Part shown: positions 1 through 62,488 of the stretch, piece after piece | Numbering within the stretch: the first letter of the stretch is position 1 | Layout: each line of letters begins with the position of its first letter | Source of the DNA: Acidimicrobiaceae bacterium | GTDB taxonomy: Bacteria > Actinomycetota > Acidimicrobiia > Acidimicrobiales > Aldehydirespiratoraceae | Length of the DNA: 64,000 nt | Reading direction: 5' to 3' | Assembly: GCA_026706815.1 (NCBI GenBank) | Contig: JAPOYA010000059.1 | Location: 62,001 to 126,000 of the forward strand | Translations under genes and position numbers: made by a program | The notes under the pieces: model-generated | Databases searched by the model: none | Told to the model about the DNA's origin: nothing | Seen by the model: the letters and a program-made list of their open reading frames with translations, nothing else

Positions 1-10
1 CCCTCTGAGA

Positions 11-397: not shown

Positions 398-2185
398 ATG
401 AATTCACACTGCACCCGGACGTCTGACAAGGCACTCGGATACGCGTGCGCGCCGCTTGGTTGTAGAGTCGTGGCCGTGAACGGTGTGGGACGGGTGCTCG
501 GCACCGAGGATGCTACGCCGCTGGAGTTCTGGGTAGCGCTCGACCCCGGACACCACCTGCAGCTCGACGATGTCGTCTCCATAGACCGTCAGCTCCCGAA
601 AGGCGACAAGATCAAGCTGTACGGAATCGTCAGCCAGGTCCGGGCACGCCACGAAGGCGCCCGCTTCGACAGCGACGTGTTCCTGATCGCAGACGGGATC
701 CTGCCGGCAGAGGTGACGGAGGCAGCTCTGGTACAGGTGACCCGAGTCGTGCCCGAGACCTTCGTACCGCCGCTGCCGGGGACAGAGGTGCGTCGGGCGG
801 TCGACTCGGAGCGGGACGCCGCGCTCGACTTCGATGACGTCGAACGCCGCCTGCCCGCCGGACTGAGCCGCGATGAGGATCCGATCTATCTCGATCTCGA
901 CTTCATCGACGGCACCAAGGGCGCGCATATCAATATCAGCGGGATCTCCGGCGTCGCCACCAAAACCAGCTACGCGACGTTCCTGTTGTATTCGTTGTTC
1001 AACTCGGGGGTGCTCGGCGCCGCTGCCGCCCATGCCAAAGGCCTGATCTTCAACGTCAAAGGCGAGGACCTGCTGTTTTTGGATCACCTCAACACCAGGC
1101 TGGATGAAACTCAGCGAGTTCGCTACGGAGCCCTCGGCATGCAGGCTGCGCCTTTCAGGTCGGTCGGAGTCCTGGCCCCGCCCCGACCGGGCGACCCCAA
1201 CGCCACACCCGCCACCGGAGCTCGAACTACCGGGGTGCGCCCATATTTCTGGACCATTGCCGACTTCTGCAGCCAGCGTCTGCTGCCGTTCCTGTTCGCC
1301 GACGCCGAAGACGAACGACAGCATTACACCATCGTCGTGCAATCGGTCACCGAACAGTTGGCGCAGTGCGCCCGCGACTCCGACACTTCCGCCGGAACGG
1401 TGCAGATCCAGAGAAGCACGATCCGATCATTCAGACAACTGATTGACAAGATCGAGTCGATACTCATCCCCGACGACCCAGATCAGCCCGTGGACCCGCG
1501 CTGGTCGGGCCGTGCCATCGGCAGCGGCACCATCAATGCCTTCGTCCGACGCCTGAACGCCGCTGTCCGCCATGTCGAGCATCTCATCCGCGCTGATCTC
1601 GACAACGCACCCGCGCATGCAATCGACCTCGACTCCCAGCAGTTGACGGTCATCGACATCCACCTGCTGCACGACCGCGCCAAACGCTTCGTCGTCGGGG
1701 TGGTGCTGCGTCAGGCCTTCGAAGACAAGGAACGCAGCGGTACGTCCGACCCGCTGCAGTTCATCGTCTTAGACGAGCTCAACAAGTACGCCCCGCGGGA
1801 CAACAGCAGTCCCATCAAAGAGATTCTGCTGGACGTGGCCGAGCGGGGCCGCAGCCTGGGGATCATCCTGATCGGAGCGCAACAGACCGCCAGTGAGGTC
1901 GAACGCCGGGTCGTGGCCAACAGCGCTGTGCGTGTGGTCGGTCGGCTCGACAGCGGCGAGGCCGGGCGCGAACAGTACGGGTTTCTCCCCGCAGTACAGC
2001 GTCAACGGGCCACGATCCTCAAACCCGGATCCATGTTCGTGGCCCAACCACGGCTCCCGGTTCCATTGCTCGTGGAGTTCCCATTTCCAGCGTGGGCCAC
2101 CCGTTCCGCCGAAGCAGACCTGTCGCACACACCCCCTGGGCGGCAATCGACCCAACCAGCCGACCCGTTCGAAGGGCTTTCGTGA
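398..2185 (+). CDS. herA: HerA-type DNA-translocating ATPase
   Basis: Probable HerA/FtsK-superfamily hexameric translocase that works with NurA nuclease in resecting DNA ends. Residues 25-130 resemble the N-terminal HAS-barrel (GRVLGTEDATPLEFWVAL). A P-loop-like segment GISGVATKTSYATFLL lies near 187-202 and is degenerate (GVATKTS). The C-terminal half has a clear Walker B (FIVLDELNKYAP) and the sensor region GIILIGAQQTASEVERRVVANSAVRVVGR typical of HerA/DUF87 proteins. The start is uncertain: residues 1-24 look unlike protein, and GTG at 470 or 476 fits better. A TAGAGT -10-like box at 463-468 would make 476 leaderless. Forty bases separate it from sbcD, suggesting co-transcription with sbcDC. 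The partner nurA lies 6.6 kb downstream. Confidence 0.83.
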   Translation: MNSHCTRTSDKALGYACAPLGCRVVAVNGVGRVLGTEDATPLEFWVALDPGHHLQLDDVVSIDRQLPKGDKIKLYGIVSQVRARHEGARFDSDVFLIADGILPAEVTEAALVQVTRVVPETFVPPLPGTEVRRAVDSERDAALDFDDVERRLPAGLSRDEDPIYLDLDFIDGTKGAHINISGISGVATKTSYATFLLYSLFNSGVLGAAAAHAKGLIFNVKGEDLLFLDHLNTRLDETQRVRYGALGMQAAPFRSVGVLAPPRPGDPNATPATGARTTGVRPYFWTIADFCSQRLLPFLFADAEDERQHYTIVVQSVTEQLAQCARDSDTSAGTVQIQRSTIRSFRQLIDKIESILIPDDPDQPVDPRWSGRAIGSGTINAFVRRLNAAVRHVEHLIRADLDNAPAHAIDLDSQQLTVIDIHLLHDRAKRFVVGVVLRQAFEDKERSGTSDPLQFIVLDELNKYAPRDNSSPIKEILLDVAERGRSLGIILIGAQQTASEVERRVVANSAVRVVGRLDSGEAGREQYGFLPAVQRQRATILKPGSMFVAQPRLPVPLLVEFPFPAWATRSAEADLSHTPPGRQSTQPADPFEGLS

Positions 2186-2225
2186 TCGCTGAACGAGGCA
2201 AGCGGAGGCAGGAGGGGCAGGGGGA

Positions 2226-3401
2226 ATGAAGCTGCTTCACACCAGCGACTGGCATGTGGGAAAGACCATCCGCGGCCATAGCCGAGCGCCTGAACATTCA
2301 GCGGTGCTCGACGAAATCGGGTCGCTCGTCGGCGAACACTCGGTCGACTTGGTCATCGTGGCGGGCGACTTGTTCGAGACGGCCAGTCCCTCCGCGGAAG
2401 CCGAATCGCTCGTGTATCGCACTCTGCTGCGACTGCTCGATACTGGCGCCCAGGTGGCGGTGATCTCCGGCAACCATGACAACGCTCGCCGATTGCGCGC
2501 AGTCGCCCCGGTGTTCGAGGCGCTCGGGCGGATACATCTCGTGACCGAGCCCACCCGTCTCGAAGACGGCGGCTTGATCAGCCTCTCAATACCGGGAGGC
2601 GAGGAAGTGCGGTTGGCGATGCTGCCGTTCGTCTCTCAACGCGGAGTGGTCCGGGCCAAGGACCTGATGGAGGCCGCCGCATACGAGAACACCCAGGCCT
2701 ACGCAGAACGAATGCGTCTGCTGATCGAGGCGCTCACAGCCGGTTTCGGCACCGACACAGTCAACATCCTGGCAGCGCACGCGTTCGTCTACGGCGGCCG
2801 GCTAGGCGGTGGTGAACGAGACGCTCATTTCATTGACGACTATGCGATCAGCGCGCAGTCGTTCCCGGTGGAGGCCGGCTATGTGGCTCTGGGCCATGTG
2901 CATCGCGCTCAGAAGATCCCAGGAGCAGCGCCGATCCACTATTGCGGATCACCTTTGCAGCTCGATTTTGGAGAAGAAGACCAAGTCAAACAGGTGAACC
3001 TGGTCGAGATTGAACCCGGGATCCCCCCCAGAGTCACACCCGTGATTCTGAACGCGGGCCGAGCGCTGCGGACCCTGCGGGGCAGTATGGTCGAACTGGC
3101 CGCTCAACTCGAAGACGGAACGGTCGACGACGACGCCTGGCTGCGGGTGCTGGTGGACGAACCTCGCCGCGCAGGTTTGGCCGACGACGTGCGGGAACTT
3201 CTCGGCGAACGGGTGGTGGACGTCCGCATGGACGCCCCCGCGCCGAAGCGGAAGACGAGGGGGGCCCGCAGAGGACGTGCACCGACGGAGTTGTTCGCAG
3301 AGTTCCTCGCCGAGAGGAATATCGAAGACCCCCTCGTCAGCGCCATGTTCGCGGAGTTGCTCGACGCTCAACTGGAATCAGCGCAGGAGTCGGCGTCGTG
3401 A
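2226..3401 (+). CDS. sbcD: Exonuclease SbcCD subunit D (Mre11-like)
   Basis: Metallophosphoesterase nuclease subunit that, with SbcC, opens and trims hairpins and blocked double-strand DNA ends. All phosphodiesterase motifs are visible: DWHVG at residues 8-12, VAGDLFE near 51, GNHDN near 83, AAHAFVYGG and GHVHRAQK. The acidic/basic C-terminal part would be the SbcC-binding region. The 391-residue length fits the family. The start has a purine-rich ribosome site (aggaggggcaggggga) directly upstream. It overlaps sbcC by a GTGA stop/start, so translation is very probably coupled. It lies in the HerA block. Confidence 0.95.
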   Translation: MKLLHTSDWHVGKTIRGHSRAPEHSAVLDEIGSLVGEHSVDLVIVAGDLFETASPSAEAESLVYRTLLRLLDTGAQVAVISGNHDNARRLRAVAPVFEALGRIHLVTEPTRLEDGGLISLSIPGGEEVRLAMLPFVSQRGVVRAKDLMEAAAYENTQAYAERMRLLIEALTAGFGTDTVNILAAHAFVYGGRLGGGERDAHFIDDYAISAQSFPVEAGYVALGHVHRAQKIPGAAPIHYCGSPLQLDFGEEDQVKQVNLVEIEPGIPPRVTPVILNAGRALRTLRGSMVELAAQLEDGTVDDDAWLRVLVDEPRRAGLADDVRELLGERVVDVRMDAPAPKRKTRGARRGRAPTELFAEFLAERNIEDPLVSAMFAELLDAQLESAQESAS

Positions 3402-6241
3402 GGCCGTTGCGCTTGGAGATGAAAGGCTTCGGAGCGTTTCGCGAAGAGACGGTGGTGGACTTCGACGACGTGGAACTGGCGGCTTTCGTTGGAGCCACGG
3501 GTTCTGGCAAGTCCACGATCATCGACGGCATCACGTTCGCCCTGTTCGGGGTGGTCACCCGCTACGACGATCGCCGTGCCGTAGCGCCCGTCATCAACCA
3601 GATGGAACATGAGGCCCGGGTGTCACTCGAGTTCGAGGTGGACTCCGAGCGGTACACCGCGGTAAGGGTCGCACGACGCACCAACAACGGCGCCACGACC
3701 AAAGATGCACGCTTGGAGCGCGGCGACCAGATCCTTGCGGGCAGAGCCGGCGAAATGGAACAAGCCGTAGAGCAGGTACTGGGACTCGACTTCGACCGTT
3801 TCACCAAGACCGTGGTTCTGCCACAAGGCCGCTTCGCCGCTTTCCTGCACGACAAGCCCAAGGACCGCCAGGAACTCTTGCGCCAGCTGCTCGACTTGGG
3901 CATATACGAACGAATGGGCGTGCAAGCCCGGCAACGAGCTAAAACCGCCGGCGACCAACTGGAGGCGCTTGAGCCAATGCTCGCAGCCGATGTCCCCAGC
4001 GAGGAACAGATCGTGTCGTTGGCTGAAACGCTCGCGACAGTGACCGAGGCCAAGGCTGCTTTGGAAGGTCTTCTGACCGAACTCGAACACAGCTCTGAAG
4101 CTGTCGCTGATGCCCGTGATCACGCGGAGGGATTGGGGATGCTGCTGCTCGCCGCGACCGGTGTGACTGTGCCCGAACCGGTGGAGAAGTTGGGCAACGA
4201 CATGAGACAGGCGCAGGACGAAGCTTCAGCCTCGGCGTCGACCCATGCTGAGGCCGCGCAAAATGCCCGCGAGGCAGAACAAGCAGAAAGAGAAGGCCCC
4301 AATATCGAGGCCTGTCTCTTGTTGCGCAAGCAGCATGGGGAATTGGCGAGCTTGACGCAGAAACTCGCGAACCTCGACGAAGAATGCGATACCGCTGAGA
4401 AGTGCTATAGCGAGGCCGCCGAACGGGCTGCCGAAATCAGGTGTCGGCTGGAACTCGCAAAAGCGGCTGTCACTGAAGCAGACACCGCCGCGGACGCTGC
4501 ACAGAAAGCCGCGGCAGAGGGTCCCGACTCAGCGAAACTCGGCCGCTGGCGTGACCAACGTGCCGAGTTGACCCGTCTTAACGGCCGGTTGGAAGGGGCA
4601 AAAGAAAACCTGACTGTTGAGCAAGAGCACGAGGCCAAGGCCCGAGCTGCCTGCGAACAGGCTCGGGACGACCTTCGCGAAACCCGTGAACGTCTCGACC
4701 AAGCCCGGGCGGTCAAGCAGGCCGAAGGGTTGGTCTCTCAGTTGGTCGAAGGCGAGCCGTGCCCAGTGTGCCGTCAACTCGTGCACGAACTGCCCGAACA
4801 CGATCTGGATGCTGAAATGGCCGAGCTCCAGCGCGTGCATGCCGAAGCAGAGACTCTCAAGCGCGAGCGCGAAGAGGATCTTGACGAAACCCGCACGGCG
4901 CTCGCTACTGCCGAAGCAGCGGTTGAATCTGTGGAGCAGCGGTGTAGCGAACTATCCGAAGAACTCGCCGCTGCTCCCGACGAAATGGAACTCAACCGCC
5001 TCACAGCGCTGGTCGATGGACTGGCAGAAGCAGTGACTGAGACCCGAGCGAACCTGGATGCTGCCCGACAAGCCGAAACCGACCTGCGTGACGGGGATGA
5101 AACGAAGGAGACTCTCAGAGCCGAGCAAGAAACTCATGAACACCTGACGCGCTCGACCGCTGAGCGCGACACCATTCGTTCCCAACGCGCTCAACTGGCT
5201 GAGGAACTGACAGACAAACCCGATGAGGAGACTCTCCAAGCCGATATTGCGCGGGCTGAACAACTTGCCGAAACCCGCAGCAAGGCCAGAAAAGATGAGA
5301 CCGAGGCGCGCGAAGCGGAGCAGGCGACAGGGGAGGTCCTCGAACGGCTCGCCGAGGCGGAGCTACAGGCGCGCAAAGAGTTCGCCCGAACCCGCGATGA
5401 TTTTGCCGCTTTGGACCCACCGTCACCCGAAGCGTCGCTGGTGGAGGATTGGCAGGCATTGACAGGTTGGGCAACGGAACTCGCGGGCGACCTCGCCTCT
5501 GAACTCGACAAAGCAAACGATCATGTCACCAAGGTTGAGGCTCAATGGGGCCAACAGGCTGAAGCGGCCCGCGCGGTGTGCATACCCCACTTCGACCCCG
5601 ACGATGATCCGAAGCAATGGCCCGTCGAAATGGCGACGGCGTTGGAACGGGCAAAGGGCGACCATCAGCGGGCCTGCGGCCAGCGCCAGAAAATGGCAGA
5701 GCTGCAAGAACGAGTCGAAGGTTTGCGCACAGAACAACGCGTGGCGAGCGAACTTGGGCGTCTGCTGCGCACCGACAGATTCGAGAAATGGCTGCTGGAG
5801 GATGCAATCGGCGATCTGATGGCCCGTGCCGGCGAGCGGCTGCTCGAGTTGTCCAACGGCCAGTATTCGTTCGACGCGGACGGCACCGAGTTCGATGTCT
5901 GCGATCACCACAACGCTGATCAGATACGAGCAGCAAGATCACTTTCGGGGGGAGAGACGTTTCTGGCCAGCCTGGCTCTGGCCCTGGCGCTGAGCGATTC
6001 TCATGCGGAGTTGGCCCCCGAGGGCGCTCCGGGCCTCGATTCGCTGTTCCTCGACGAGGGATTCGGCACACTCGACCCCGAGACTCTGGATGTGACTGCG
6101 GCTGCCATCGAAGAGCTCGGCGCCTCTGGCCGCATGGTCGCCATCGTCACCCACATCCGCGAGCTCGCCGAGCGCATGCCCATCCGCTTCGAGGTCGCCA
6201 AATCCCCCACCACCTCCACCGTCACCCGCGTGACGGTGTGA
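3398..6241 (+). CDS. sbcC: Exonuclease SbcCD subunit C (Rad50-like ATPase)
   Basis: SMC-like ATPase that gates the SbcD nuclease. Walker A GATGSGKST occupies residues 31-39. Long heptad-rich coiled coils run either side of a zinc hook CPVC at about 455-458. The ABC signature LSGGE is near 849 and Walker B SLFLDEGFGTLD near 882. It ends with the D-loop/H-loop segment IVTHIRELAER. The 947-residue length is usual for the family. The GTG start overlaps the sbcD stop by four bases. The codon for the zinc hook lies midway between the two coils, as expected for an intact protein. Confidence 0.96.
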   Translation: MRPLRLEMKGFGAFREETVVDFDDVELAAFVGATGSGKSTIIDGITFALFGVVTRYDDRRAVAPVINQMEHEARVSLEFEVDSERYTAVRVARRTNNGATTKDARLERGDQILAGRAGEMEQAVEQVLGLDFDRFTKTVVLPQGRFAAFLHDKPKDRQELLRQLLDLGIYERMGVQARQRAKTAGDQLEALEPMLAADVPSEEQIVSLAETLATVTEAKAALEGLLTELEHSSEAVADARDHAEGLGMLLLAATGVTVPEPVEKLGNDMRQAQDEASASASTHAEAAQNAREAEQAEREGPNIEACLLLRKQHGELASLTQKLANLDEECDTAEKCYSEAAERAAEIRCRLELAKAAVTEADTAADAAQKAAAEGPDSAKLGRWRDQRAELTRLNGRLEGAKENLTVEQEHEAKARAACEQARDDLRETRERLDQARAVKQAEGLVSQLVEGEPCPVCRQLVHELPEHDLDAEMAELQRVHAEAETLKREREEDLDETRTALATAEAAVESVEQRCSELSEELAAAPDEMELNRLTALVDGLAEAVTETRANLDAARQAETDLRDGDETKETLRAEQETHEHLTRSTAERDTIRSQRAQLAEELTDKPDEETLQADIARAEQLAETRSKARKDETEAREAEQATGEVLERLAEAELQARKEFARTRDDFAALDPPSPEASLVEDWQALTGWATELAGDLASELDKANDHVTKVEAQWGQQAEAARAVCIPHFDPDDDPKQWPVEMATALERAKGDHQRACGQRQKMAELQERVEGLRTEQRVASELGRLLRTDRFEKWLLEDAIGDLMARAGERLLELSNGQYSFDADGTEFDVCDHHNADQIRAARSLSGGETFLASLALALALSDSHAELAPEGAPGLDSLFLDEGFGTLDPETLDVTAAAIEELGASGRMVAIVTHIRELAERMPIRFEVAKSPTTSTVTRVTV

Positions 6242-6336
6242 AACCGGCAATCTCACAGCCGTCCCCCGCCTGCTCCCATGGTCGCCGTTGCGAGCCGTTG
6301 GAGGGGACGCACAGGTTGTCCTAGTGTTGTGCATCT

Positions 6337-6618
6337 ATGGACGAACCCGAAACTCAAGAGTTCGAGATCGAGGGCTCTTTCGAGTTGGCGGGCGGCGTCT
6401 GGGCCAACTTCGCCGCCGTCTCGCACTCTCCCCATGAATTCACCATCGATTTCATCCGCCTCGACTATCAGACACAGAACCCGACACGGGGCGTGGTGGT
6501 GCAACGCGTCAACATGTCGCCACTGCTCGTACAGCAGCTCATCGTCGCATTGACCGAGAACATGCAGAAGTACGCTGAGAGCATCCCGGACGGCCTGACC
6601 CTGGAAGGCGACGACTAG
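6337..6618 (+). CDS. DUF3467 family protein
   Basis: A 93-residue protein with the layout of DUF3467: an N-terminal strand-rich part (YVNF-like region replaced here by VWANFAAVSHSPHEFTIDFIRL) and a C-terminal amphipathic helix (SPLLVQQLIVALTENMQKYAES). The family has no settled biochemical role. It lies 95 bases after sbcC and 47 bases before the HSDR_N-type nuclease gene, both on the same strand, so it may belong to the same transcription unit. No catalytic motif is visible. Confidence 0.75.
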   Translation: MDEPETQEFEIEGSFELAGGVWANFAAVSHSPHEFTIDFIRLDYQTQNPTRGVVVQRVNMSPLLVQQLIVALTENMQKYAESIPDGLTLEGDD

Positions 6619-6665
6619 ACGACAGCGATTGCGCGCCTCCAATTTCAATGGTCTAGTGTCTCTTC

Positions 6666-7745
6666 ATGTCTCTGGAAGAGCACTTGGAGAGAATCAGGTC
6701 CAGAACAGTCCCTCCGAACGAGGAATCAGCCAAATTTCAGATAATCGCCCCGATATTGGAGAGCCTGGGCTGGTCGCCGAGTGACGGCTCGGAGTTTCTG
6801 CTGGAGTATCCGGTCGGTGGCAAGCGGGGCGGACGGGTCGATATCGCGCTGCGCTCCATTGCCCGCGGCCAAAGTCGATTGCTCGCGTTGATCGAAGCCA
6901 AAGCGCCAGGGTCCGACTTGTCCCAGCATGTCGGTCAGGTGCTCGGCTATGCATTCCACGAAGGCGTGGACGTCTGCGTGTTGACGACCGGGTTGGAGTG
7001 GCAGCTGTTTCTGCCACGCGAATCCGGCGAGCCGATGCAGCGCCGGTTTGCGGTGCTGGACCTGCTGAACGACCCGGCAGAGCAGGTTGCAGAGGACCTC
7101 CGTGCCTTTCTGACGAAGGAAGCGCTGACAAAGGGCCGGGCGGAGAAGAAGGCCAAGTCGGTCTTGAAGGCGCGCTTGGACGCAGATCGTCTGCAGAGTG
7201 AGATACCGAAGATCTGGGACCGGATGTTGCGCGGTCCGGACGAAGAACTAGTCGAGCTCGTTGGTTCACGCGTCTACGAAAAACTCAACCTCAGACCCCA
7301 CAGAGACCAGGTGATCGCTGCGCTCGGTGGGGGACCTGTTCCCATGGCTTTGGAGACTCCTGCACAACAGACTCCCGAAGTCAGCGGCCCCAAGCCCTCC
7401 AACGAAGGGAGACCATCACGCCGATCTAAGGTGCCGCCGACAAGCATCGTGCTTTGGGGTGTCCCATACCAAGTCGCCAGACACAAAGACGTCCTGTGCC
7501 AGGTTGTCGATTGCCTCTACGAAAGGCACGCAAACGACAATTTCGACCGGATCCTCGAACTCAGAGGACGACAGAAACCCTATGCGGCGCTGACTCCAGA
7601 CGGCATGCATGCACATCATCGGGTCAAGTCCTCGCGTTACTTCTTGGACGCACACGGCAGTGCCGCAGATCTTCGACGACGCGCTGAGCTGTTCCTTGCC
7701 ACATTCGGCTACGACAAGTCCGATCTTGAGGTGCTGTTCGAGTAG
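6666..7745 (+). CDS. Type I restriction HSDR_N-like PD-(D/E)xK nuclease
   Basis: The first 120 residues match the HsdR N-terminal nuclease fold: GGRVDIAL (Asp59), then LIEAK (Glu77, Lys79) and a conserved helix with QVLGYAFHEGVDVCVLTTGLEW. There is no helicase module, so this is a free-standing nuclease-type protein of 359 residues and not a full HsdR. After a linker with Pro/Ser-rich sequence (about 235-260), the C-terminal 100 residues (LWGVPYQVARHKDVLCQVVDCLYERH... through FLATFGYDKSDLEVLFE) resemble a domain that often follows HSDR_N in unclassified proteins. It is convergent with the DNA methyltransferase, with 6 bases between the stops. Substrate unknown; a defence or DNA repair role is inferred. 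Confidence 0.78.
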   Translation: MSLEEHLERIRSRTVPPNEESAKFQIIAPILESLGWSPSDGSEFLLEYPVGGKRGGRVDIALRSIARGQSRLLALIEAKAPGSDLSQHVGQVLGYAFHEGVDVCVLTTGLEWQLFLPRESGEPMQRRFAVLDLLNDPAEQVAEDLRAFLTKEALTKGRAEKKAKSVLKARLDADRLQSEIPKIWDRMLRGPDEELVELVGSRVYEKLNLRPHRDQVIAALGGGPVPMALETPAQQTPEVSGPKPSNEGRPSRRSKVPPTSIVLWGVPYQVARHKDVLCQVVDCLYERHANDNFDRILELRGRQKPYAALTPDGMHAHHRVKSSRYFLDAHGSAADLRRRAELFLATFGYDKSDLEVLFE

Positions 7746-7751
7746 TGTTGT

Positions 7752-8690
7752 TCACGGCCTGATGTCCGTGCGCTGGGGGACGTCGGTGCGTGTGGTGATG
7801 CAATCGTGATGAAACGAGCCTCCAATTTCAGCGTGCAGTCGTTCGTTGACGAGTTCCGCTGACTCGGAGGACAGGTCGATTCCGACCCATTGCCGGTTCA
7901 GTTTCTCTGCGGCGACGCAAGTAGTGGCACAGCCCGCGAACGGGTCCAGCACGACGTCGTTCTCGTTGCTGCTCGCGGTGATGATCCGCTCCAACAGCTT
8001 CAGCGGTTTCTGCGTCGGATAGCCGCAGCGCTCAGACCCGGTGGTTGAGATGATGCCGATATCGGTCCACCAGTCCTGGAGCATTTTGCCTTCGGGGTGA
8101 AAACCGGGTCTCCCTTCAACGTCGGGGGTGGCATAGGGCACACGAATCACGTTGTGGACGCAGTCGCGTTCCCGTCCATAGAGCAGCAGCACGTCGTGTT
8201 TGCGCGAAAAGTGTCTCTTGCTTGCACCACCCGACGAATAGCACCAGACGATCTCGTTTCGGAACTGCTCCCATCCGAACACGGCGTCCATCAGCTGCTT
8301 CAGATAGTGGCTCGCGGTGGGGTCGCAATGCAGATAAATGCTGCCGGTGAGTTTCAAAATGCGCTGCATTTCCAACAACCGCACCGCCATCATCGTCAAA
8401 TACGATTGCATCCCCGGAGAGTGGGCCGTCCCCGACCCAGAGAGCAGACAGGCGATGGCTGGATGTTCGTCGGCAATGTAACCGACCGACATGGCGTCGA
8501 GGTCGGCCGTTGTCCAAGTGTCTTTGAAGGCCGCTCCGGCAGCTTTGCTGTCGACCGGCGCGGAGTAGTTCCGATTCGAGTTGAACGGAGGGTCCAAGTA
8601 GATCAGATCAGCTGTCTCACTGTTGAGTCCGCGCAATATGTCGAGATTGTCGCCTGTCCAGATCGTTCGATTGGCGAAATTAGGTTCCAT
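7752..8690 (-). CDS. Site-specific DNA methyltransferase, beta class (N4-C or N6-A)
   Basis: SAM-dependent DNA amino-methyltransferase. The catalytic motif IV, DPPF within LIYLDPPFNSNRNY, precedes the SAM-binding motif I, LDPFAGCATT, near the C-terminus. This order defines the beta class used by many type II and III N4-cytosine or N6-adenine enzymes. I placed the start at the ATG giving MEPNFANRTIWTGDNLD, because the frame continues open far upstream but that extension is antisense to nurA and not methyltransferase-like. The product is 312 residues. It is divergent from nurA (87 bases between starts) and convergent with the HSDR_N nuclease. No dedicated type II restriction enzyme or specificity subunit is next to it. 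Whether it methylates N4-C or N6-A cannot be read from sequence. Confidence 0.88.
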   Translation of the reverse strand: MEPNFANRTIWTGDNLDILRGLNSETADLIYLDPPFNSNRNYSAPVDSKAAGAAFKDTWTTADLDAMSVGYIADEHPAIACLLSGSGTAHSPGMQSYLTMMAVRLLEMQRILKLTGSIYLHCDPTASHYLKQLMDAVFGWEQFRNEIVWCYSSGGASKRHFSRKHDVLLLYGRERDCVHNVIRVPYATPDVEGRPGFHPEGKMLQDWWTDIGIISTTGSERCGYPTQKPLKLLERIITASSNENDVVLDPFAGCATTCVAAEKLNRQWVGIDLSSESAELVNERLHAEIGGSFHHDCITTRTDVPQRTDIRP

Positions 8691-8777
8691 AGCGGTGATC
8701 ACGCGTTCAATCAGTATTTTGGACCACGCCAACCATAGTTTCAGAAGCGTTGGCGCCGCATCCAAGGAGCGCTCGTT

Positions 8778-9695
8778 GTGAAGTTCAGTGTGGAGACTTG
8801 GGCGCCTGAGTACGGGATCGGCTTTGATGCTCAGCAATTGGAGGAATCGACTGACACAGTCGATGTCGGCGTGGAGGTTGAGGCTGACGATTGGTCTCCT
8901 GTGACGCCCGCGGCGGTTGATCCGCCTGCTTGTGTTCTGTTCATCGACGGTGTCCGGCGAATCGACGTGCGGGTCTGGATCAGCGACGGCGAACTGGCCC
9001 GCGCGGGCGTGTGCGCGTCGGTGGCGGCGGGTGCGGTTCGGTGTACTCGAAGCGAAGCCCATGTGGTTGATGCTGCGGTGATGAGAGGGGTCTATGCGGC
9101 GCCGTCCGAGGCCGCGGGGCCGATCGTCACGGATCACGGAACATACGAGTTCGTTCCTTGCGCGAGCGATGCTCCCGACAGCGTCTACAACGGGATTCAT
9201 GAACAGATGACCCGCCTGGAGACCAGGTTCGGCAACGACGACGATGCCGACATGGTTGTCTTCGACGGTCCTTTGCGCGGCCGCATCAACCCCAAAGGCG
9301 TCGGCTACATCAAGACGCAGCATGTCCAGTATTTGCCGGAATCTGAGCAGCGGGTCTTGCAGTTGCTCGATGCAGGCCAGCGGACCCCGCTGTTCTTGAT
9401 CGGCGGAGCGGGGTTCACCCGCTGGTCGTGGTATCTGCGGTTGCCCGGTCCCGACACTCATCCACTGGCGGGCATTGTTCGCTGCGAGCTCCCCGGAGTC
9501 GGCAGCGCTGCTGAAGCCATTCGGCGGGCCGACCAAACCACCGCAACGCTGCCTCGTTTCGCCAGCGAACCCCACAAAGACTCTCGGGCGCCGCAAAACC
9601 TGTACCCGATAGCCGGGCTGGAAAACAAACTGCGGCACCGCCTCGGAGATCAGTCGAAGCTCGAACGTGCTCTGCGAATTGCCGCTGATGGCTGA
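8778..9695 (+). CDS. nurA: NurA-like 5'-3' nuclease
   Basis: Probable NurA nuclease, the partner of HerA in end resection. It shows an early catalytic-type Asp in VLFIDGVRR (Asp57) and a second acidic segment MVVFDGPLRGR (Asp163). A basic stretch follows, GVGYIKTQHVQYL (Lys180), which is followed in the family by a strand like TPLFLIGGAGFTRWSWYLRL. The C-terminal NLYPIAGLENKLRHRLGD also fits. The 305-residue length is normal. The start is GTG with AAGGAG nine bases upstream. It is separated from herA by sbcDC, a small gene and the nuclease/methyltransferase pair. A hairpin follows its end. The assignment rests on motif pattern, so moderate-high confidence. Confidence 0.75.
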   Translation: MKFSVETWAPEYGIGFDAQQLEESTDTVDVGVEVEADDWSPVTPAAVDPPACVLFIDGVRRIDVRVWISDGELARAGVCASVAAGAVRCTRSEAHVVDAAVMRGVYAAPSEAAGPIVTDHGTYEFVPCASDAPDSVYNGIHEQMTRLETRFGNDDDADMVVFDGPLRGRINPKGVGYIKTQHVQYLPESEQRVLQLLDAGQRTPLFLIGGAGFTRWSWYLRLPGPDTHPLAGIVRCELPGVGSAAEAIRRADQTTATLPRFASEPHKDSRAPQNLYPIAGLENKLRHRLGDQSKLERALRIAADG

Positions 9696-9846: not shown

Positions 9847-11349
9847 GTGTGGTGTTCAGGCAAAGATCCTCGAATGAAGCTGCGTAGGAGAACTCGGGCC
9901 GACGGGGCCGGTCAACGTCACGATCCGTGTGTCGCTGAGCTGATCCGTGCGCTCGGCGCCGATCGGGTCCGTGCTGACAACGCGGCGCGACATCTCGCCA
10001 GCGCCGACGCTTCGATGTTCATCGACGGCGCCGCGGGGCCGGTGTGCTTCCCGGACTCCACCGAGCACGTGCAGGCGATCATGGGTGTCGCCGCCAGACA
10101 CGACCGGGCGGTTCTTCCCCGAGGCGCCGGGACCGGACTGAGCGGCGGGGCCGCCCCGCTCGGCGATCCCATCGTCGTCTCCACAACGCGCATGAACCGG
10201 GTTCTCGAGGTCGATGTCGAGGATCGCGTCGCCTGGGTGCAGCCAGGCGTGGTCAACCTTGACCTGACCAAGCAGGTGGCGTCTTCGGGTCTGCACTTCG
10301 CGCCGGACCCCTCATCGCAACAGGTGTGCACGATCGGCGGCAACGTCGCCAATAATTCCGGTGGACCCCACTGTCTTGCCTACGGCGTCACCAGTGCACA
10401 TGTACTGGCTGTGGAGGTCGTGTTGTCGAGCGGCGAAGCGGTCGTGCTCGGAGGGCTCGAAGCCGAGCCTTCGGGATACGACCTGCGGGGTGCCTTCGTC
10501 GGCTCGGAGGGAATGTTCGGCGTCACCACAAAGATCGCGGTGCGTTTGACTCCAGACCCTGAGAGCGTAAAAACGCTGTTGCTGGCGTTCGACGCCGTGT
10601 CTGATGCGGCCGCCACCGTGGGTGCGGTGATCGCCTCAGGGTCGGTGCCCGCGGCGATCGAGATGATGGACAAGCGCTGTGTCGCCGCTGTCGAGGATTT
10701 CGCGCATGCCGGTTACCCCCGCGATGCCGCAGCGGTGCTGTTGATCGAGGTTGACGGTCCGCGACGGGGCGTCGAGGCGGAGACCGACAAGGTCGCCGAG
10801 ATCGGCCGCGCGCATGGTGGGACCGTGCGGGTGGCGGCTGACGAACAAGAGCGGGCACTGCTCTGGAAGGGACGAAAGAGTGCGTTCGGGGCAGTCGCGC
10901 GGGTTGCGCCCGACTACTACCTCCACGACACCGTGGTACCTCGTTCCAAGCTCGTCGAAGTGCTGGAGGCTGTTTATGAGATCGTCGATCGTTACGATCT
11001 CACCGCGGTCAACGTCTTCCACGCGGGAGACGGCAACCTGCATCCGCTGATGGCCTATGACTCACGCGAACCGGGCGTCAACGAGCGTGTCGCCGCAGCG
11101 GGGCGAGAAATCCTCGAAGTCTCGTTGGCGGTGGGCGGTGTCCTGTCCGGCGAGCATGGCATCGGCGTCGAAAAGCGAGATTTCATGGAGTACCAGTTCA
11201 CCAGCGCGGACCTTGAGCAACAGGCGCTCCTGCGGCGTTCGTTCGATCCGCACTGCCGCTTGAACCCGGGCAAGGTTCTTCCGTCGGCCCACAGCTGCGC
11301 AGACATCGCGTCGTTGTCGGCATTCAAAGCCGACGGAGTGTGGGGATGA
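9847..11349 (+). CDS. glcD: Glycolate oxidase FAD-binding subunit GlcD
   Basis: FAD-linked dehydrogenase oxidising glycolate or a related 2-hydroxyacid to the keto acid. The PCMH-type FAD domain has AVLPRGAGTGLSGGA near residues 90-105 and GGNVANNSGGPHCLAYG near 160-176. The C-terminal substrate/FAD domain contains FHAGDGNLHP and LSGEHGIGVEK. The first possible start is GTG at the given position; an ATG nine codons later (9874) is equally good. The stop overlaps glcE by ATGA, so it is the first gene of a glcDEF operon. Lactate or another hydroxyacid is a possible alternative substrate. Confidence 0.9.
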   Translation: MWCSGKDPRMKLRRRTRADGAGQRHDPCVAELIRALGADRVRADNAARHLASADASMFIDGAAGPVCFPDSTEHVQAIMGVAARHDRAVLPRGAGTGLSGGAAPLGDPIVVSTTRMNRVLEVDVEDRVAWVQPGVVNLDLTKQVASSGLHFAPDPSSQQVCTIGGNVANNSGGPHCLAYGVTSAHVLAVEVVLSSGEAVVLGGLEAEPSGYDLRGAFVGSEGMFGVTTKIAVRLTPDPESVKTLLLAFDAVSDAAATVGAVIASGSVPAAIEMMDKRCVAAVEDFAHAGYPRDAAAVLLIEVDGPRRGVEAETDKVAEIGRAHGGTVRVAADEQERALLWKGRKSAFGAVARVAPDYYLHDTVVPRSKLVEVLEAVYEIVDRYDLTAVNVFHAGDGNLHPLMAYDSREPGVNERVAAAGREILEVSLAVGGVLSGEHGIGVEKRDFMEYQFTSADLEQQALLRRSFDPHCRLNPGKVLPSAHSCADIASLSAFKADGVWG

Positions 11350-12284
11350 TCGCCCCGCCGGTGATTGAAGACGCCGAACTGCTGGCTTTCGCTGCTGAGG
11401 TCGGGCCCAGCGGTCCAGTCGCGGTCCGTGGTGGAGGCACCCAGTGGCATGTGGGCGGAGCCCCCGACCACGGCGTGCGGGAAGTGCGGGCACCGTCTGG
11501 CATCGTGGAGTACCGGCCCGATGAGATGACCGTCTGCGTGCGCGCGGGCACCACAGTCGCCGAACTCCACGCTGTCCTCGCCGAACACGGTCAGCGCACC
11601 GCTCTGCCCGATGGATCTGGGCCGTTCGGTTCGCGTTCTTCGACAGTCGGCGGAGCGATCGCGGTCGGACGGTCGCCGGTCACAAGGCTGGGGAACGGCC
11701 ACATCCGCGACGCGGTCCTGCAGTTGCGCTACGCGGCCGCCGACGGTCGACTCGTGACCGCGGGCGGGCCCACAGTCAAGAACGTGACCGGTTTCGACAT
11801 GTGCCGCGTTCTGGTCGGTTCGTTGGGCACGTTGGGGTGCATCGGCGATGCGATCCTGCGCACCCGCCCCAAGCCCGAACACGAGCAATGGGTGCAACTC
11901 GAAGACGCCGAACCGCAGACCGTTCTCAGAACCGCGAGAACGGCAACAGCCATCTTGTGGGACGGATCGGTGGTGTGGGCCCGACTCTGCGGACACCATG
12001 TCGATGTTGAAGACGATCTCGCCCGACTGCCCGCATCGTCGGCGGCTCAACCGCCGGATTTGCCGCCGTACCGCTGGTCTCGCCGCCCCAAGGATCTGTA
12101 CTGCCTCCCGGAAGAGACAGGACGTTTCATCGCCGAGGTCGGCGTTGGCGTCGTCCATTGCGAACGCCCCGACCCCGACCCGCCACCGGTCGCACCCGGT
12201 GTGGCGGCCCTCAATCGTCGAGTGCGCGAACTGTTCGACCCCGATCGTCGTTTCAACCCCGGTCGATCCGTGGAGCGGCTATGA
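11346..12284 (+). CDS. glcE: Glycolate oxidase subunit GlcE (FAD-binding)
   Basis: Second, smaller FAD-binding subunit of the glycolate oxidase complex. It has the typical half-length PCMH fold: AVRGGGTQWHVGG near the N-terminus, VCVRAGTTVAELHAVLAEHGQ, STVGGAIAVGRS and the GPTVKNVTGFDMCRVLVGSLGTLG segment that is characteristic of GlcE. The ATG start overlaps the glcD stop (ATGA), and its own stop overlaps the glcF start the same way. Translational coupling of all three subunits follows from these overlaps. About 312 residues. Confidence 0.88.
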   Translation: MIAPPVIEDAELLAFAAEVGPSGPVAVRGGGTQWHVGGAPDHGVREVRAPSGIVEYRPDEMTVCVRAGTTVAELHAVLAEHGQRTALPDGSGPFGSRSSTVGGAIAVGRSPVTRLGNGHIRDAVLQLRYAAADGRLVTAGGPTVKNVTGFDMCRVLVGSLGTLGCIGDAILRTRPKPEHEQWVQLEDAEPQTVLRTARTATAILWDGSVVWARLCGHHVDVEDDLARLPASSAAQPPDLPPYRWSRRPKDLYCLPEETGRFIAEVGVGVVHCERPDPDPPPVAPGVAALNRRVRELFDPDRRFNPGRSVERL

Positions 12285-13459
12285 GCGAATCTCTTGGACT
12301 TCTGGGGCTTGAGCAGGCTGAACGCGATAGTTGCGTGGCGTGCGGACTCTGCCTTCCCCATTGCCCGACATATCGGGTGACCGGTGCCGACACCCACTCG
12401 CCGCGGGGGCGCATAGCCCTCATGCAGGTTGTGGATGAAGGCATCGCTCCGCTGACAGAGGAGATCGTCGAAGCTTTCGACTCGTGTATTCAATGCCGAG
12501 CCTGTGAGACCGCCTGTCCCGGTGATGTGCCTTTCGGACACCTGATGGAGTCCACCAAAGAGGTCGTCGAGTCGACCCGCGGCAGGGCTCCGTGGTGGCT
12601 GAAGCTGGGTTTGCGGGCTCTGACCCGTCCAACTTTGCTGCGAATTGGTTCAAGTTGCCTCGCGGTTGCACAACGTCTGCGGCTCGTTCCGTCGCGGCGC
12701 CTCGGCCTCCCGGACCGACTGCCGCTACGCCGCCGGGCGTTGCGAGCAACGGGTGACGACGTGTGGCTGTTCACTGGGTGCGTCATGGACGCTTGGCAAC
12801 GCGACATTCACCTAGCGACCCAAGAGGTGGTCGAGGCGACCGGCACGACAGTGCGTCCGACCGGTGACGCGGCGCCTTGCTGTGGGGCGCTGCACACCCA
12901 CGCCGGACTCGGCGACGGCGCCCGCAAGCTGGCCGCCCGAGTGATGTCAGCGCTTGACGGCGACAACGCTGTTCTCGTGAACTCCGCCGGTTGCGGAGCT
13001 GCTTTGAAGGACTACGGCCGGCTGCTCGGCAGCGACGAAGCCCGGGCCTTCTCAGCACGGGTGTTCGACATTCACGAATGGCTGGCCGACCATATTGATG
13101 AGATGGACGCGAATCCTCTGGAGCCGGCGATCGCTGTGCGGGTGGCAATCCAGGATCCCTGTCATCTCCGCCATGTACAGGGGTCGCACATGGCTGTTCG
13201 CGAGGTCCTCGAACCGTTCGTCTCAGAGATTGTGGAACTCGATGATGAGGGGATGTGCTGCGGTGCCGGTGGAGCGTTTTCGCTGGTCAACCCACAGTTG
13301 GCGCTTGATGTTCGCGACCGCAAGACCGAAGCGATCAGCCGATCGCGTGCTGACGTTGTGGTGAGCGCCAATCCCGGATGTTCAATGCACCTTGCCGCCG
13401 CAGGCGTGACAGTCCGCCACCCGATGGAGTTGATCGCCGAGGCACTGCGGGCACGCTAG
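12281..13459 (+). CDS. glcF: Glycolate oxidase iron-sulfur subunit GlcF
   Basis: Electron-transfer subunit of glycolate oxidase. Two 4Fe-4S ferredoxin motifs are visible, CVACGLCLPHCPTY and CIQCRACETACPGD. Two CCG (cysteine-rich) domains follow, with APCCGALHTHAG and GMCCGAGGAFSL, as in heterodisulfide-reductase-like subunits. I chose the ATG that overlaps the glcE stop (392 residues); the longer open frame upstream would read through glcE. It is last in the operon and convergent with the MFS gene 50 bases on. Confidence 0.9.
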   Translation: MSESLGLLGLEQAERDSCVACGLCLPHCPTYRVTGADTHSPRGRIALMQVVDEGIAPLTEEIVEAFDSCIQCRACETACPGDVPFGHLMESTKEVVESTRGRAPWWLKLGLRALTRPTLLRIGSSCLAVAQRLRLVPSRRLGLPDRLPLRRRALRATGDDVWLFTGCVMDAWQRDIHLATQEVVEATGTTVRPTGDAAPCCGALHTHAGLGDGARKLAARVMSALDGDNAVLVNSAGCGAALKDYGRLLGSDEARAFSARVFDIHEWLADHIDEMDANPLEPAIAVRVAIQDPCHLRHVQGSHMAVREVLEPFVSEIVELDDEGMCCGAGGAFSLVNPQLALDVRDRKTEAISRSRADVVVSANPGCSMHLAAAGVTVRHPMELIAEALRAR

Positions 13460-55846: not shown

Positions 55847-55888
55847 CGCGGTTGTCTCCTGTCTGGTTGTTGGCGAATCGAAAGTTAG

Positions 55889-55962
55889 TGAGTCGGGAGG
55901 GACTCTAACCCTCAACAAACGGATTAAAAGTCCGCTGCTCTACCATGTTGAGCTACCGACTC
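55889..55962 (-). tRNA. tRNA-Lys (TTT)
   Basis: Acceptor GAGTCGG/CCGACTC fully paired, anticodon loop CTTTTAA. No encoded CCA. Start of the tRNA-rich region. Confidence 0.9.
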
Positions 55963-56037
55963 GTGGAAACCACCCGAACGAACAGTGGAGCTCTGGTCGG
56001 TCAACGCGTGAACAGCGACGCGACCGTTAAGCGATAG

Positions 56038-56110
56038 CGCCCCTGGCAGGACTCGAACCTGCTGCCTCTCGGTTAGAAGCCGAGCGCTCTTCCAGATGAG
56101 CTACAAGGGC
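56038..56110 (-). tRNA. tRNA-Arg (TCT)
   Basis: Acceptor GCCCTTG/CAGGGGC (one G-U), anticodon stem CTCGG/CCGAG with loop CTTCTAA. Its 5' 42 bases (anticodon arm to the 5' end) recur perfectly at 57003-57044. The full gene stands on the low-coordinate side of the HepT/MntA pair. Confidence 0.94.
56069..56110. repeat. 42-bp direct repeat, copy 1 (5' half of tRNA-Arg)
   Basis: Identical over 42 bases to 57003-57044, in the same orientation, and it flanks the toxin-antitoxin pair. It begins in the anticodon arm and ends exactly at the tRNA 5' end, as an integration attachment site would. Confidence 0.9.
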
Positions 56111-58330: not shown

Positions 58331-58334
58331 GTGG

Positions 58335-58420
58335 TGCGGGAGGGGGGAGTCGAACCCCCACGGGCCTTTCGGCCCACCAGGCCCTCAGCCTGGCGCGTCT
58401 ACCAGCTTCGCCACTCCCGC
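58335..58420 (-). tRNA. tRNA-Leu (GAG)
   Basis: Long variable arm; acceptor GCGGGAG/CTCCCGC, anticodon loop CTGAGGG. Discriminator A followed by encoded CCA. Last of the array in transcription order. Confidence 0.93.
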
Positions 58421-58469
58421 GCTGAGTGTCGGCCCTCACATCACCGCTCACGGTCACGCGACGGTTGCG

Positions 58470-58543
58470 TAGCGACACCAAGACTCGAACCTGGGGCCAA
58501 CGCGTTATGAGCGCGCCGCTCTAACCAACTGAGCTATGTCGCT
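58470..58543 (-). tRNA. tRNA-Met or Ile2 (CAT)
   Basis: Acceptor AGCGACA/TGTCGCT, anticodon loop CTCATAA. No CCA. Elongator Met is likely, but a lysidine-modified Ile2 with CAT cannot be excluded. Confidence 0.88.
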
Positions 58544-58547
58544 GTGG

Positions 58548-58633
58548 TACGGGGAGTGAGAGTCGAACTCACACGGGCCTCTCGGCCCACCAGGTCCTGA
58601 ACCTGGCGCGTCTACCTGCTCCGCCACCCCCGC
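58548..58633 (-). tRNA. tRNA-Leu (CAG)
   Basis: Long variable arm; anticodon stem CCAGG/CCTGG with loop TTCAGGA. Acceptor has two G-U pairs. CCA is encoded. Confidence 0.93.
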
Positions 58634-58658
58634 TCGTTCGCCCGAAATACGAGCGCTG

Positions 58659-58731
58659 TGGCCCGAGGCGGAATCGAACCGCCGACCTCTCGCTTTTCAG
58701 ACGAGCGCTCTTCCAACTGAGCTACCGAACC
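58659..58731 (-). tRNA. tRNA-Phe (GAA)
   Basis: Acceptor GGTTCGG/TCGGGCC (three G-U pairs), anticodon loop CTGAAAA. No CCA. Confidence 0.92.
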
Positions 58732-58735
58732 GTTG

Positions 58736-58809
58736 AGCCGGAGACGGGATTTGAACCCGTGAATCACTGCTTTGCAGGCAGTCCCCTTAGTCCACTCGGG
58801 CACCCCGGC
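58736..58809 (-). tRNA. tRNA-Cys (GCA)
   Basis: Anticodon stem ACTGC/GCAGT with loop CTGCAAA; acceptor GCCGGGG/CTCCGGC. Discriminator U, the tRNA-Cys identity base. No CCA. Confidence 0.93.
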
Positions 58810-58814
58810 GTTGG

Positions 58815-58901
58815 CGGAAAGGGCGGGATTTGAACCCACGGACGCTCACACGTCGCCGCCTTAGCAGGGCGGTGCCATAAACCTGACTCGGCCACCTTTC
58901 C
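58815..58901 (-). tRNA. tRNA-Ser (GCT)
   Basis: Long variable arm; anticodon stem CCGCC/GGCGG with loop CTGCTAA, acceptor GGAAAGG/CCTTTCC. CCA is encoded. Confidence 0.93.
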
Positions 58902-58904
58902 ATG

Positions 58905-58978
58905 TAGGCACGAGTGGAGTTGAACCACCGGCCTCTCCCTTATCAGGGGAGCGCTCTGACCAACTGAGCTACGTGCCT
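58905..58978 (-). tRNA. tRNA-Ile (GAT)
   Basis: Acceptor AGGCACG/CGTGCCT, anticodon stem CTCCC/GGGAG with loop CTGATAA. No CCA. Confidence 0.93.
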
Positions 58979-58986
58979 TCGTGTTG

Positions 58987-59062
58987 CGCCCCCAACCGGA
59001 TTTGAACCGGCGACCTCCGCCTTGACAGGGCGGCGCTCTGGACCTGGCTGAGCTATGAGGGC
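58987..59062 (-). tRNA. tRNA-Asp (GTC)
   Basis: Anticodon loop CTGTCAA on stem CCGCC/GGCGG; acceptor GCCCTCA/TGGGGGC (one G-U). A slightly long D loop. No CCA. Confidence 0.92.
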
Positions 59063-59076
59063 AGGCTTGTTCTTGG

Positions 59077-59149
59077 TACCCCCAACGGGATTCAAACCCG
59101 TGTTTCCGGCGTGAAAGGCCAGCGTCTTTGTTCGCTAAACGATGGGGGT
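59077..59149 (-). tRNA. tRNA-Glu (TTC)
   Basis: Acceptor ACCCCCA/TGGGGGT; anticodon loop CTTTCAC. CCA is encoded. Confidence 0.9.
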
Positions 59150-59230
59150 GAGGATCGTGTGGCTTCGGCTGTGATCCCATGAAGCCTTCTGGAAGCTCAA
59201 CATTCCGTCCCACAACTAGACGGACGATGG

Positions 59231-59315
59231 AGGAAACGGCGGGATTTGAACCAGCGGACCCGTGAAGGTCTCCTGGTTTCGAGACAGGTGCATTAGTCCG
59301 CTCCGCCGCGTTTCC
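59231..59315 (-). tRNA. tRNA-Ser (CGA)
   Basis: Long variable arm; acceptor GGAAACG/CGTTTCC; anticodon loop CTCGAAA with a T-C mismatch closing the anticodon stem. Discriminator T, then CCA. Both deviations are unusual for Ser. Confidence 0.85.
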
Positions 59316-59320
59316 ACTAG

Positions 59321-59393
59321 CACTCCAGGCGGGAGTCGAACCCGCTACCTCCTGGCTGAGAACCAGGCGTCCAACCCGGTAGACCGCTGGGGC
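59321..59393 (-). tRNA. tRNA-Glu (CTC), second copy, divergent
   Basis: Anticodon loop TTCTCAG on stem CCTGG/CCAGG. Acceptor GCCCCAG/CTGGAGT contains a C-A mismatch at position 3. It differs clearly from the housekeeping tRNA-Glu(CTC) at 50743. No CCA. Confidence 0.78.
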
Positions 59394-59398
59394 GTGCG

Positions 59399-59471
59399 TG
59401 CGTCTCCTGGGGATCGAACCCAGAGCCTTCGGATTAAGAGTCCGCTGCTCTTCCAGTTGAGCTAGAGACGC
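59399..59471 (-). tRNA. tRNA-Lys (CTT)
   Basis: Acceptor GCGTCTC/GAGACGC; anticodon loop CTCTTAA; one mismatch at the far end of the anticodon stem. No CCA. Confidence 0.88.
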
Positions 59472-59572
59472 ATGTTGAGAGCCTGCCAAGAGGCGCTGTT
59501 GCTCAGGTCGGCGATGCGGCTGAGGCTGCTGAGCGTTCAAGTTCCTTGAGGATTTTCTTGAAGAGCTTTTGG

Positions 59573-59645
59573 CAGGGAAGGCGAGGGTCGAACTCGCGGC
59601 CTCCTGGTCCAGAGCCAGGCGCTCTACCAACTGAGCTACTTCCCA
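59573..59645 (-). tRNA. tRNA-Gln (CTG), second copy
   Basis: Anticodon loop CTCTGGA on stem CCTGG/CCAGG. Acceptor TGGGAAG/CTTCCCT has a T-T mismatch at 1-72. CCA is encoded. Duplicates the isoacceptor at 50596. Confidence 0.87.
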
Positions 59646-59655
59646 TTGTTACTGG

Positions 59656-59729
59656 TCGGGGTGACTGGATTTGAACCAGCGGCCCCCTGCTCCCAAAGCA
59701 GGTGCTCTTCCAAGCTGAGCTACACCCCG
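59656..59729 (-). tRNA. tRNA-Pro (TGG), array copy
   Basis: Acceptor CGGGGTG/CACCCCG; anticodon loop TTTGGGA. CCA is encoded. Its 3' half is nearly identical to the tRNA-Pro at 62415-62488. Confidence 0.93.
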
Positions 59730-59738
59730 CGGTGATGG

Positions 59739-59812
59739 CTGGGAAGGTGGGCCTCGAACCCACGGCCTCTCGGTTAACAGCCGAGCGCTCTGCCGAACTG
59801 AGCTACTTCCCA
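59739..59812 (-). tRNA. tRNA-Asn (GTT)
   Basis: Acceptor TGGGAAG/CTTCCCA; anticodon stem CTCGG/CCGAG with loop CTGTTAA. CCA is encoded. Confidence 0.93.
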
Positions 59813-59816
59813 TTGG

Positions 59817-59890
59817 TCGGGCTGGGCGGACTTGAACCGTCGACCTCCTCGTCCCGAACGAGGCGCGCTGCCAAACTGCGCCACAACCCG
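59817..59890 (-). tRNA. tRNA-Pro (CGG)
   Basis: Acceptor CGGGTTG/CAGCCCG (one G-U); anticodon stem CCTCG/CGAGG with loop TTCGGGA. CCA is encoded. Confidence 0.93.
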
Positions 59891-59895
59891 TAGCA

Positions 59896-60022
59896 CGGAG
59901 CACCCGCAAAAGACCGAGGACTTCAACCTCGCTCGACTTAGCTTCGTGCGGGAACCCCACGGAGCGCCGGCGAGAACATCGACGACGCTTGAATCCTGAG
60001 ATCCAGTCTCTGTGGTGCTCCG
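59896..60022 (-). ncRNA. Possible structured RNA inside the tRNA array
   Basis: Where a further tRNA would be expected there is instead a region closed by a 9-bp stem (59896-59904 with 60014-60022). It contains a 5-bp stem with a 7-base loop TTGAAGT (anticodon-arm-like, CGAGG/CCTCG) and flanking arms CCGCA/TGCGG, but no T arm. A second GCTCCGTG copy could compete for the outer strand. It may be a degenerate tRNA, a tRNA-like RNA, or chance. Confidence 0.3.
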
Positions 60023-60096
60023 CGTCTGCCGCTGATCGTGCGATCAGGACTAGTCGCGGCGGATCGTGACCGAAGCGCCGGCTTCGGGTATTGGCG

Positions 60097-60169
60097 TGCC
60101 CAAGAGAGGCATCGAACCCCTAACCTCCTGTTTACAAGACAGGCGCTCTGCCTGTTGAGCTACTCGGGC
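60097..60169 (-). tRNA. tRNA-Thr (TGT)
   Basis: Acceptor GCCCGAG/CTTGGGC (one G-U); anticodon stem CCTGT/ACAGG with loop CTTGTAA. No CCA. Confidence 0.93.
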
Positions 60170-60178
60170 GAGTGCGTG

Positions 60179-60251
60179 TGCCGGTGAGAGGAATCGAACC
60201 CCTGGCCCTCTCGTTACGAATGAGACGCTCTGCCAACTGAGCTACACCGGC
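60179..60251 (-). tRNA. tRNA-Thr (CGT)
   Basis: Acceptor GCCGGTG/CACCGGC; anticodon loop TTCGTAA with an A-C mismatch next to it. No CCA. First of the array in transcription order; the 220 bases upstream hold no gene and should contain the promoter. Confidence 0.9.
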
Positions 60252-62223: not shown

Positions 62224-62414
62224 TGCCGCCGATTTCGTGCAGGTGGCCGACGTAGGCCAAATAGAGCGGATATGCCTGCACGCGTTCCCGACCGTCAACG
62301 ACCCGATGCTTGACCTGCCCGCAAAGCACTGCGTCGATTTCTGACCGGCACGGGCGCTCACTGCGGTCACGCTGGTTGCCGCGGGCGGGTGCCCGCAGCG
62401 TGATGGCGGAGTTG

Positions 62415-62488
62415 TCGGGACGACTGGATTTGAACCAGCGACCCCCTGCTCCCAAAGCAGGTGCGCTACCGAGCTGCGCCACGTCCCG
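62415..62488 (-). tRNA. tRNA-Pro (TGG), second copy
   Basis: Acceptor CGGGACG/CGTCCCG; anticodon loop TTTGGGA. No CCA, unlike the array copy. Probably the resident gene. Confidence 0.93.

Follow-up and report, generated by a model that had tools for sequence, protein, structure and literature searches.

In Sulfolobus acidocaldarius, herA, mre11, rad50, and nurA form a co-transcribed cluster, and the Mre11 protein makes contact with HerA (PMC2288612). Bacterial HerA-NurA has been described as limited to a small number of bacteria, Deinococcus-Thermus among them (PMC9960219), and a review names Actinobacteria among its carriers (PMC8708640). As HerA translocates duplex DNA, NurA cleaves its 5' strand; residues K175, T176, D487, and E488 of the Deinococcus HerA (drHerA) have been described, with the P-loop lysine being needed for both ATPase activity and resection, and D53, K201, and R309 of the Deinococcus NurA (drNurA) have been studied by mutation (PMC9960219). 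The Deinococcus complex was nevertheless judged to be weak in resection (PMC9960219) and contributes little to radioresistance, its mutants showing little radiation phenotype, and a link of SbcCD to it was left open in 2015 (PMC4663267). A nurA-hepA-sbcD-sbcC arrangement has been mentioned in passing for one organism, Oceanithermus profundus (PMC5448004). In the open literature we did not find the actinobacterial linkage of herA, sbcDC, and nurA, its spread, the near-perfect co-occurrence of its genes, or their second order, although an earlier mention (e.g., in Iyer et al. 2004) may exist.

The actinobacterial module described here resembles the archaeal cluster in bringing the same four functions together. 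It differs in that its proteins are bacterial SbcD and SbcC with HerA and NurA of the Deinococcus type, in that a second, permuted gene order exists, and in that the module is absent from many lineages and lies in a genome that also encodes an AddAB-like pair. Its closest solved relatives are the HerA and NurA of Deinococcus radiodurans (PDB 7F6D), with which it has the P-loop, the catalytic residues, and a tryptophan (W8) in common.

Gene layout and identity of the four proteins

The window analyzed here is a 64,000-nucleotide stretch of an Acidimicrobiaceae genome, at the start of which a sequence-only reading had placed seven genes in one block. All seven are present where that reading had placed them. 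On the plus strand, herA (398-2185) is followed by sbcD (2226-3401), by sbcC (3398-6241), which overlaps sbcD by 4 bases, by the gene for a small DUF3467 protein (6337-6618; PF11950, E 3.8e-13), and by that for a PD-(D/E)xK nuclease of HSDR_N type, a putative restriction enzyme (6666-7745); nurA lies at 8778-9695, closely preceded by an AAGGAG ribosome-binding site. The gene for a beta-class N6/N4 DNA methyltransferase (PF01555, E 1.2e-42), which starts at the methionine of MEPNF, occupies 7752 to about 8690 on the minus strand. Because of this opposite orientation, the block stands as a set of positions but not as a single operon, and because the methyltransferase gene separates nurA from sbcC (2.5 kb), nurA of the window genome probably has its own promoter.

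The last bases of mcrC (1-8, plus strand) form the left edge of the window. Between mcrC and herA, a small coiled-coil protein with a hydrophobic N-terminal stretch is encoded on the minus strand (11-319), and relatives of it are found at the same place in the congeners L002 and L147, some of them duplicated. After nurA, glcD-glcE-glcF-like genes, named from their translations, occupy 9847-13459, and these are also present in L002 and L141. The window carries 23 tRNA genes in all, including a minus-strand array of 18 within about 1.9 kb (58332-60251), with isotypes repeated, and three further genes near the array (55888-56110 and 62414-62488).

The herA product matches the hexameric dsDNA translocase of Deinococcus over residues 28-574 (7f6d_B, E 6.9e-150). 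Its unusual P-loop, GISGVATKT, is identical in Deinococcus HerA and nearly invariant in 82 sequences, with the core SGVATKT fully so; Walker B is also invariant in 82 relatives, as are K189, D459, and E460, which align with drHerA K175 and D487/E488. By analogy with the Deinococcus protein, HerA would be an ATP-hydrolyzing hexamer that binds a NurA dimer. SbcD, the Mre11-type nuclease subunit (TIGR00619, E 3e-53), keeps all of its phosphoesterase motifs (SDWH, GDLFE, GNHD, AHAF, and GHVH). SbcC, the Rad50-type ATPase, keeps Walker A, a CPVC zinc hook, the LSGGE signature, and Walker B, and its match to TIGR00618 (E 2.6e-78) falls under that model's curated cut-off. Measured against the nearest relative, dN/dS is 0.09-0.21 across herA, sbcD, sbcC, and nurA, which indicates that all four are under strong purifying selection.

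The assignment of the 305-residue protein to the NurA family, on which much of the sequence-only reading depended, was borne out. A profile of 34 relatives matched Deinococcus NurA (7f6d_H, E 1.1e-47) and Thermotoga TM1739 (1zup, E 2.1e-13). The AlphaFold (AF2) model (pLDDT 90.5) is predicted to have the RNase H-like NurA fold; Foldseek retrieved 7f6d_G (E 4.5e-18), and the best solved matches were TM1739 (1zup, Z 23.1), Deinococcus NurA (7f6d_G, Z 22.3), and Sulfolobus 2ygk (Z 14.9). Counted along the profile alignment, with a 20-residue tag assumed in the solved chain, drNurA D53, K201, and R309 align with window residues D57, K179, and R270, which are invariant in the 34 relatives, and the pin-region tryptophan W8 of drNurA has a nearly invariant counterpart, also W8. 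Given the matches to solved structures and the predicted fold, we regard the NurA identity of this protein as settled, and the searches against solved structures likewise settle that of HerA. Pfam returned no match at all for the window HerA, a NurA score of 17.4 bits against a gathering cut-off of 21 (E 0.003), and a sub-threshold match for the HSDR_N-like protein (E 0.05); Pfam alone is a poor guide at this locus.

Linkage and co-inheritance of herA, sbcD, sbcC, and nurA

The proposal that HerA-NurA is coupled to SbcCD at the level of gene linkage holds far beyond the window genome. Among 148 genomes of Acidimicrobiia, HerA is present in 52, and 51 of these also carry NurA; in the single exception, herA lies close to the end of its contig. 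The wider sample of 296 Actinomycetota genomes gave 66 with HerA, 64 of them with NurA, and in neither sample did NurA occur without HerA. Fisher p-values for this co-occurrence (3e-39 in Acidimicrobiia and 3e-63 in Actinomycetota) overstate its significance since related genomes are treated as independent. The phylum counts leave out the distant HerA matches of family f47. In that family (G172, G197, G208, G238, G394, and others), HerA is of a distant type, scoring about 80-100 bits, and a weak NurA match lies just upstream of it in at least five genomes. Overall, between about one fifth and one third of the sampled genomes have the module, nearly always tied to sbcDC. The dependence runs one way, since 11 Acidimicrobiia genomes have SbcD but no HerA.

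In most of the 80 HerA loci that were fetched, the four genes are directly consecutive, share one strand, and often overlap or nearly do so. Two permuted orders occur: herA-sbcD-sbcC-nurA, as in the window genome, and nurA-herA-sbcD-sbcC, for which sbcC was seen to follow sbcD in 11 fetched loci. The first is the archaeal order with mre11 and rad50 in the places of sbcD and sbcC, and the second is that of O. profundus. One genome carries two nurA-herA-sbcD blocks (G281:C33 and G281:C15), one of them with a distant HerA. The HerA, NurA, and SbcD trees agree: each separates the two gene orders (support 0.999 or higher), and the distances in the three correlate at 0.90-0.95. Genome samples, loci, and trees thus confirm both adjacency and co-inheritance, and the real unit is one of four genes rather than seven.

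Proposed role in DNA end resection

We propose that HerA, SbcD, SbcC, and NurA form an optional four-protein module for DNA end resection that supplements an AddAB-like system and that acquired passenger genes in this genus, a reading to which we assign a probability of roughly 70%. By analogy with the archaeal cluster, the four genes may be co-transcribed, with the reservation for nurA of the window genome given above, and their products would resect ends jointly. SbcCD would bind and open blocked or hairpin ends and hand the prepared ends to HerA-NurA; the HerA hexamer would then pump duplex into the NurA dimer, which would split it and cleave chiefly its 5' strand; the 3' tail left over may feed RecA. 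The activity assigned to each protein is that of its studied relatives, and we infer that SbcCD and HerA-NurA are physically coupled in this lineage and that they serve in repair. The main doubt concerns the biological role, as Deinococcus mutants show so little radiation phenotype. The weak resection by the Deinococcus complex and the dispensability of the block in several congeners also speak against the proposal.

The same genome encodes an AddB-like and an AddA-like protein from overlapping genes, with UvrD and PDDEXK_1 domains, as well as a further RecB-like protein, and PDDEXK_1 proteins of about 1000 aa are present in many HerA-positive genomes. In this respect the window genome differs from the Deinococcus phylum, which is described as being without RecBCD/AddAB (PMC9960219). 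With the AddAB-like pair in the same genome, the module would add to that route, and we rejected the idea that HerA-NurA replaces AddAB/AdnAB.

A stricter version, which we consider possible but doubtful, is that actinobacterial HerA-NurA-SbcCD is one obligate machine that works beside AddAB/AdnAB on a separate class of ends, for example protein-blocked or hairpin ends or foreign ends made by restriction, and that cells can swap one version of it for another. Such swapping is suggested by a congener (L141/L142, one genome) in which an apparently intact nurA-herA-sbcD-sbcC block lies 0.4 Mb from a broken block of the first order.

Defense genes, decay, and passengers

The sequence-only reading also offered an anti-phage island, and for this genus that is half right. 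Directly upstream of herA are genes for a McrB-like AAA_5 protein (E 4.7e-21) and McrC (PF10117, E 3.8e-56), at L123:5810-10009, and McrBC is found upstream of the module in three genus members, the window genome and two congeners. The SAM-like N-terminal region of the McrB-like protein is present a second time, in the gene that precedes McrBC. The sbcC-nurA gap in the genus holds two different kinds of restriction-modification (R-M)-type genes, and the module is patchily distributed and repeatedly decayed. On these grounds the module could act mainly against phages and plasmids, with SbcCD opening, and HerA-NurA degrading, the ends that McrBC or R-M enzymes make on foreign DNA. We think this unlikely, because the association with defense genes was seen only in this genus and failed to recur across lineages. 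McrBC was not found at the other loci, and the 144 proteins flanking 15 of these gave scattered defense matches, with no PADLOC family in more than two proteins, most belonging to ordinary metabolic families. At other loci, the genes inserted between herA and sbcD, as read from the ORF translations, include unrelated ones as well as an apparent transposase of the IS256 type, so they mark no defense hotspot. Several families, moreover, keep the module in every sampled genome.

This constancy speaks for a repair cluster that is strictly housekeeping, found throughout the lineage and linked by history only; a housekeeping cluster had been named as the rival to an island. All sampled members of families f19, f13, f22, f25, f27, and f30 carry HerA, as do 8/9 of f20, and the purifying selection noted above would fit as well. 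Against it, only 52 of the 148 class genomes carry the module, and HerA is present in 0/11 of f5 and 0/9 of f21. Within the window genome's own family, NurA was found in only a few of 51 genomes, several copies are broken, and other genomes hold partial copies of the module. In congener L147 a deletion has joined the herA start to the sbcC end, and nurA is missing; the L141 locus has a broken nurA, neither herA nor sbcD, and just the end of sbcC. As the assemblies are drafts, an isolated stop might be an error, but this would not account for the missing genes. Strict housekeeping is very unlikely in general, and in this genus the decayed copies already contradict it, even though some other families keep the module throughout. 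The module is neither strictly housekeeping nor a proven island, being constant in some families, absent from others, and decayed in congeners; we take it to be an optional module of the repair type, located in this genus within a region rich in restriction genes.

The three genes between sbcC and nurA are passengers and not parts of the machine. DUF3467, the HSDR_N-like nuclease (motifs GGRVDIA..LIEAKA), and the methyltransferase occupy that gap only in this genus, and outside it the gap is nearly always empty. Congener L002 retains the methyltransferase (81% identity, dN/dS 0.12), only the last about 66 bp of its nuclease gene are left, and its sbcC-nurA interval is without DUF3467, the spacer giving no match when aligned to the DUF3467 region. 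A different R-M-type gene, for an Eco57I-type methylase, is found in the interval of L141, and an 80% identical copy of DUF3467 lies beside the sbcC remnant of another congener (L126/L147). Like Type II R-M systems, the locus has a restriction-type nuclease beside a DNA methyltransferase; it differs in that the two genes are convergent, and its R-M class is putative. The loss of the nuclease with retention of the methyltransferase in L002 would be the pattern expected of R-M genes, for a pairing that is itself putative. Another actinobacterium (L092) encodes a distant nuclease relative, in a gene that overlaps one for a C5 methyltransferase.

No relatives of the nuclease were found in viral contigs, and its phage origin was rejected; its plasmid homologs are few and distant. 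The methyltransferase has one viral relative with 47% identity, on a phage contig (L120:5004-6257), whose translation carries a C-terminal HNH-like extension. Compared with L002, dS is 0.95 for the methyltransferase and 0.91 for nurA, about twice the 0.44-0.54 of herA, sbcD, sbcC, and glcD, which suggests that segment 7752-9695 was exchanged by recombination.

A machine of seven proteins, in which DUF3467, the nuclease, and the methyltransferase work with HerA-SbcCD-NurA, is extremely unlikely and largely refuted by comparative data: although these genes sit inside the block with 6 to 95 bases between neighbors, they are absent from the interval in all other loci except that of L002, from the same genus, which itself has no DUF3467 and only the end of the nuclease gene, the methyltransferase lies on the other strand, and the nuclease relative pairs with a different methyltransferase.

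With unrelated R-M-type genes in the middle of the block, the interest of the locus lies in the four-gene machine and not in the seven-gene block. The four-gene unit is conserved in many actinobacteria and yet dispensable. It occurs also in cells with an AddAB-like pair, almost always tied to sbcDC. With this actinobacterial distribution, whether SbcCD and HerA-NurA cooperate in bacteria, the question raised for Deinococcus (PMC4663267), can be put to the test in genera that are open to cultivation, for example Actinoplanes and Catellatospora.
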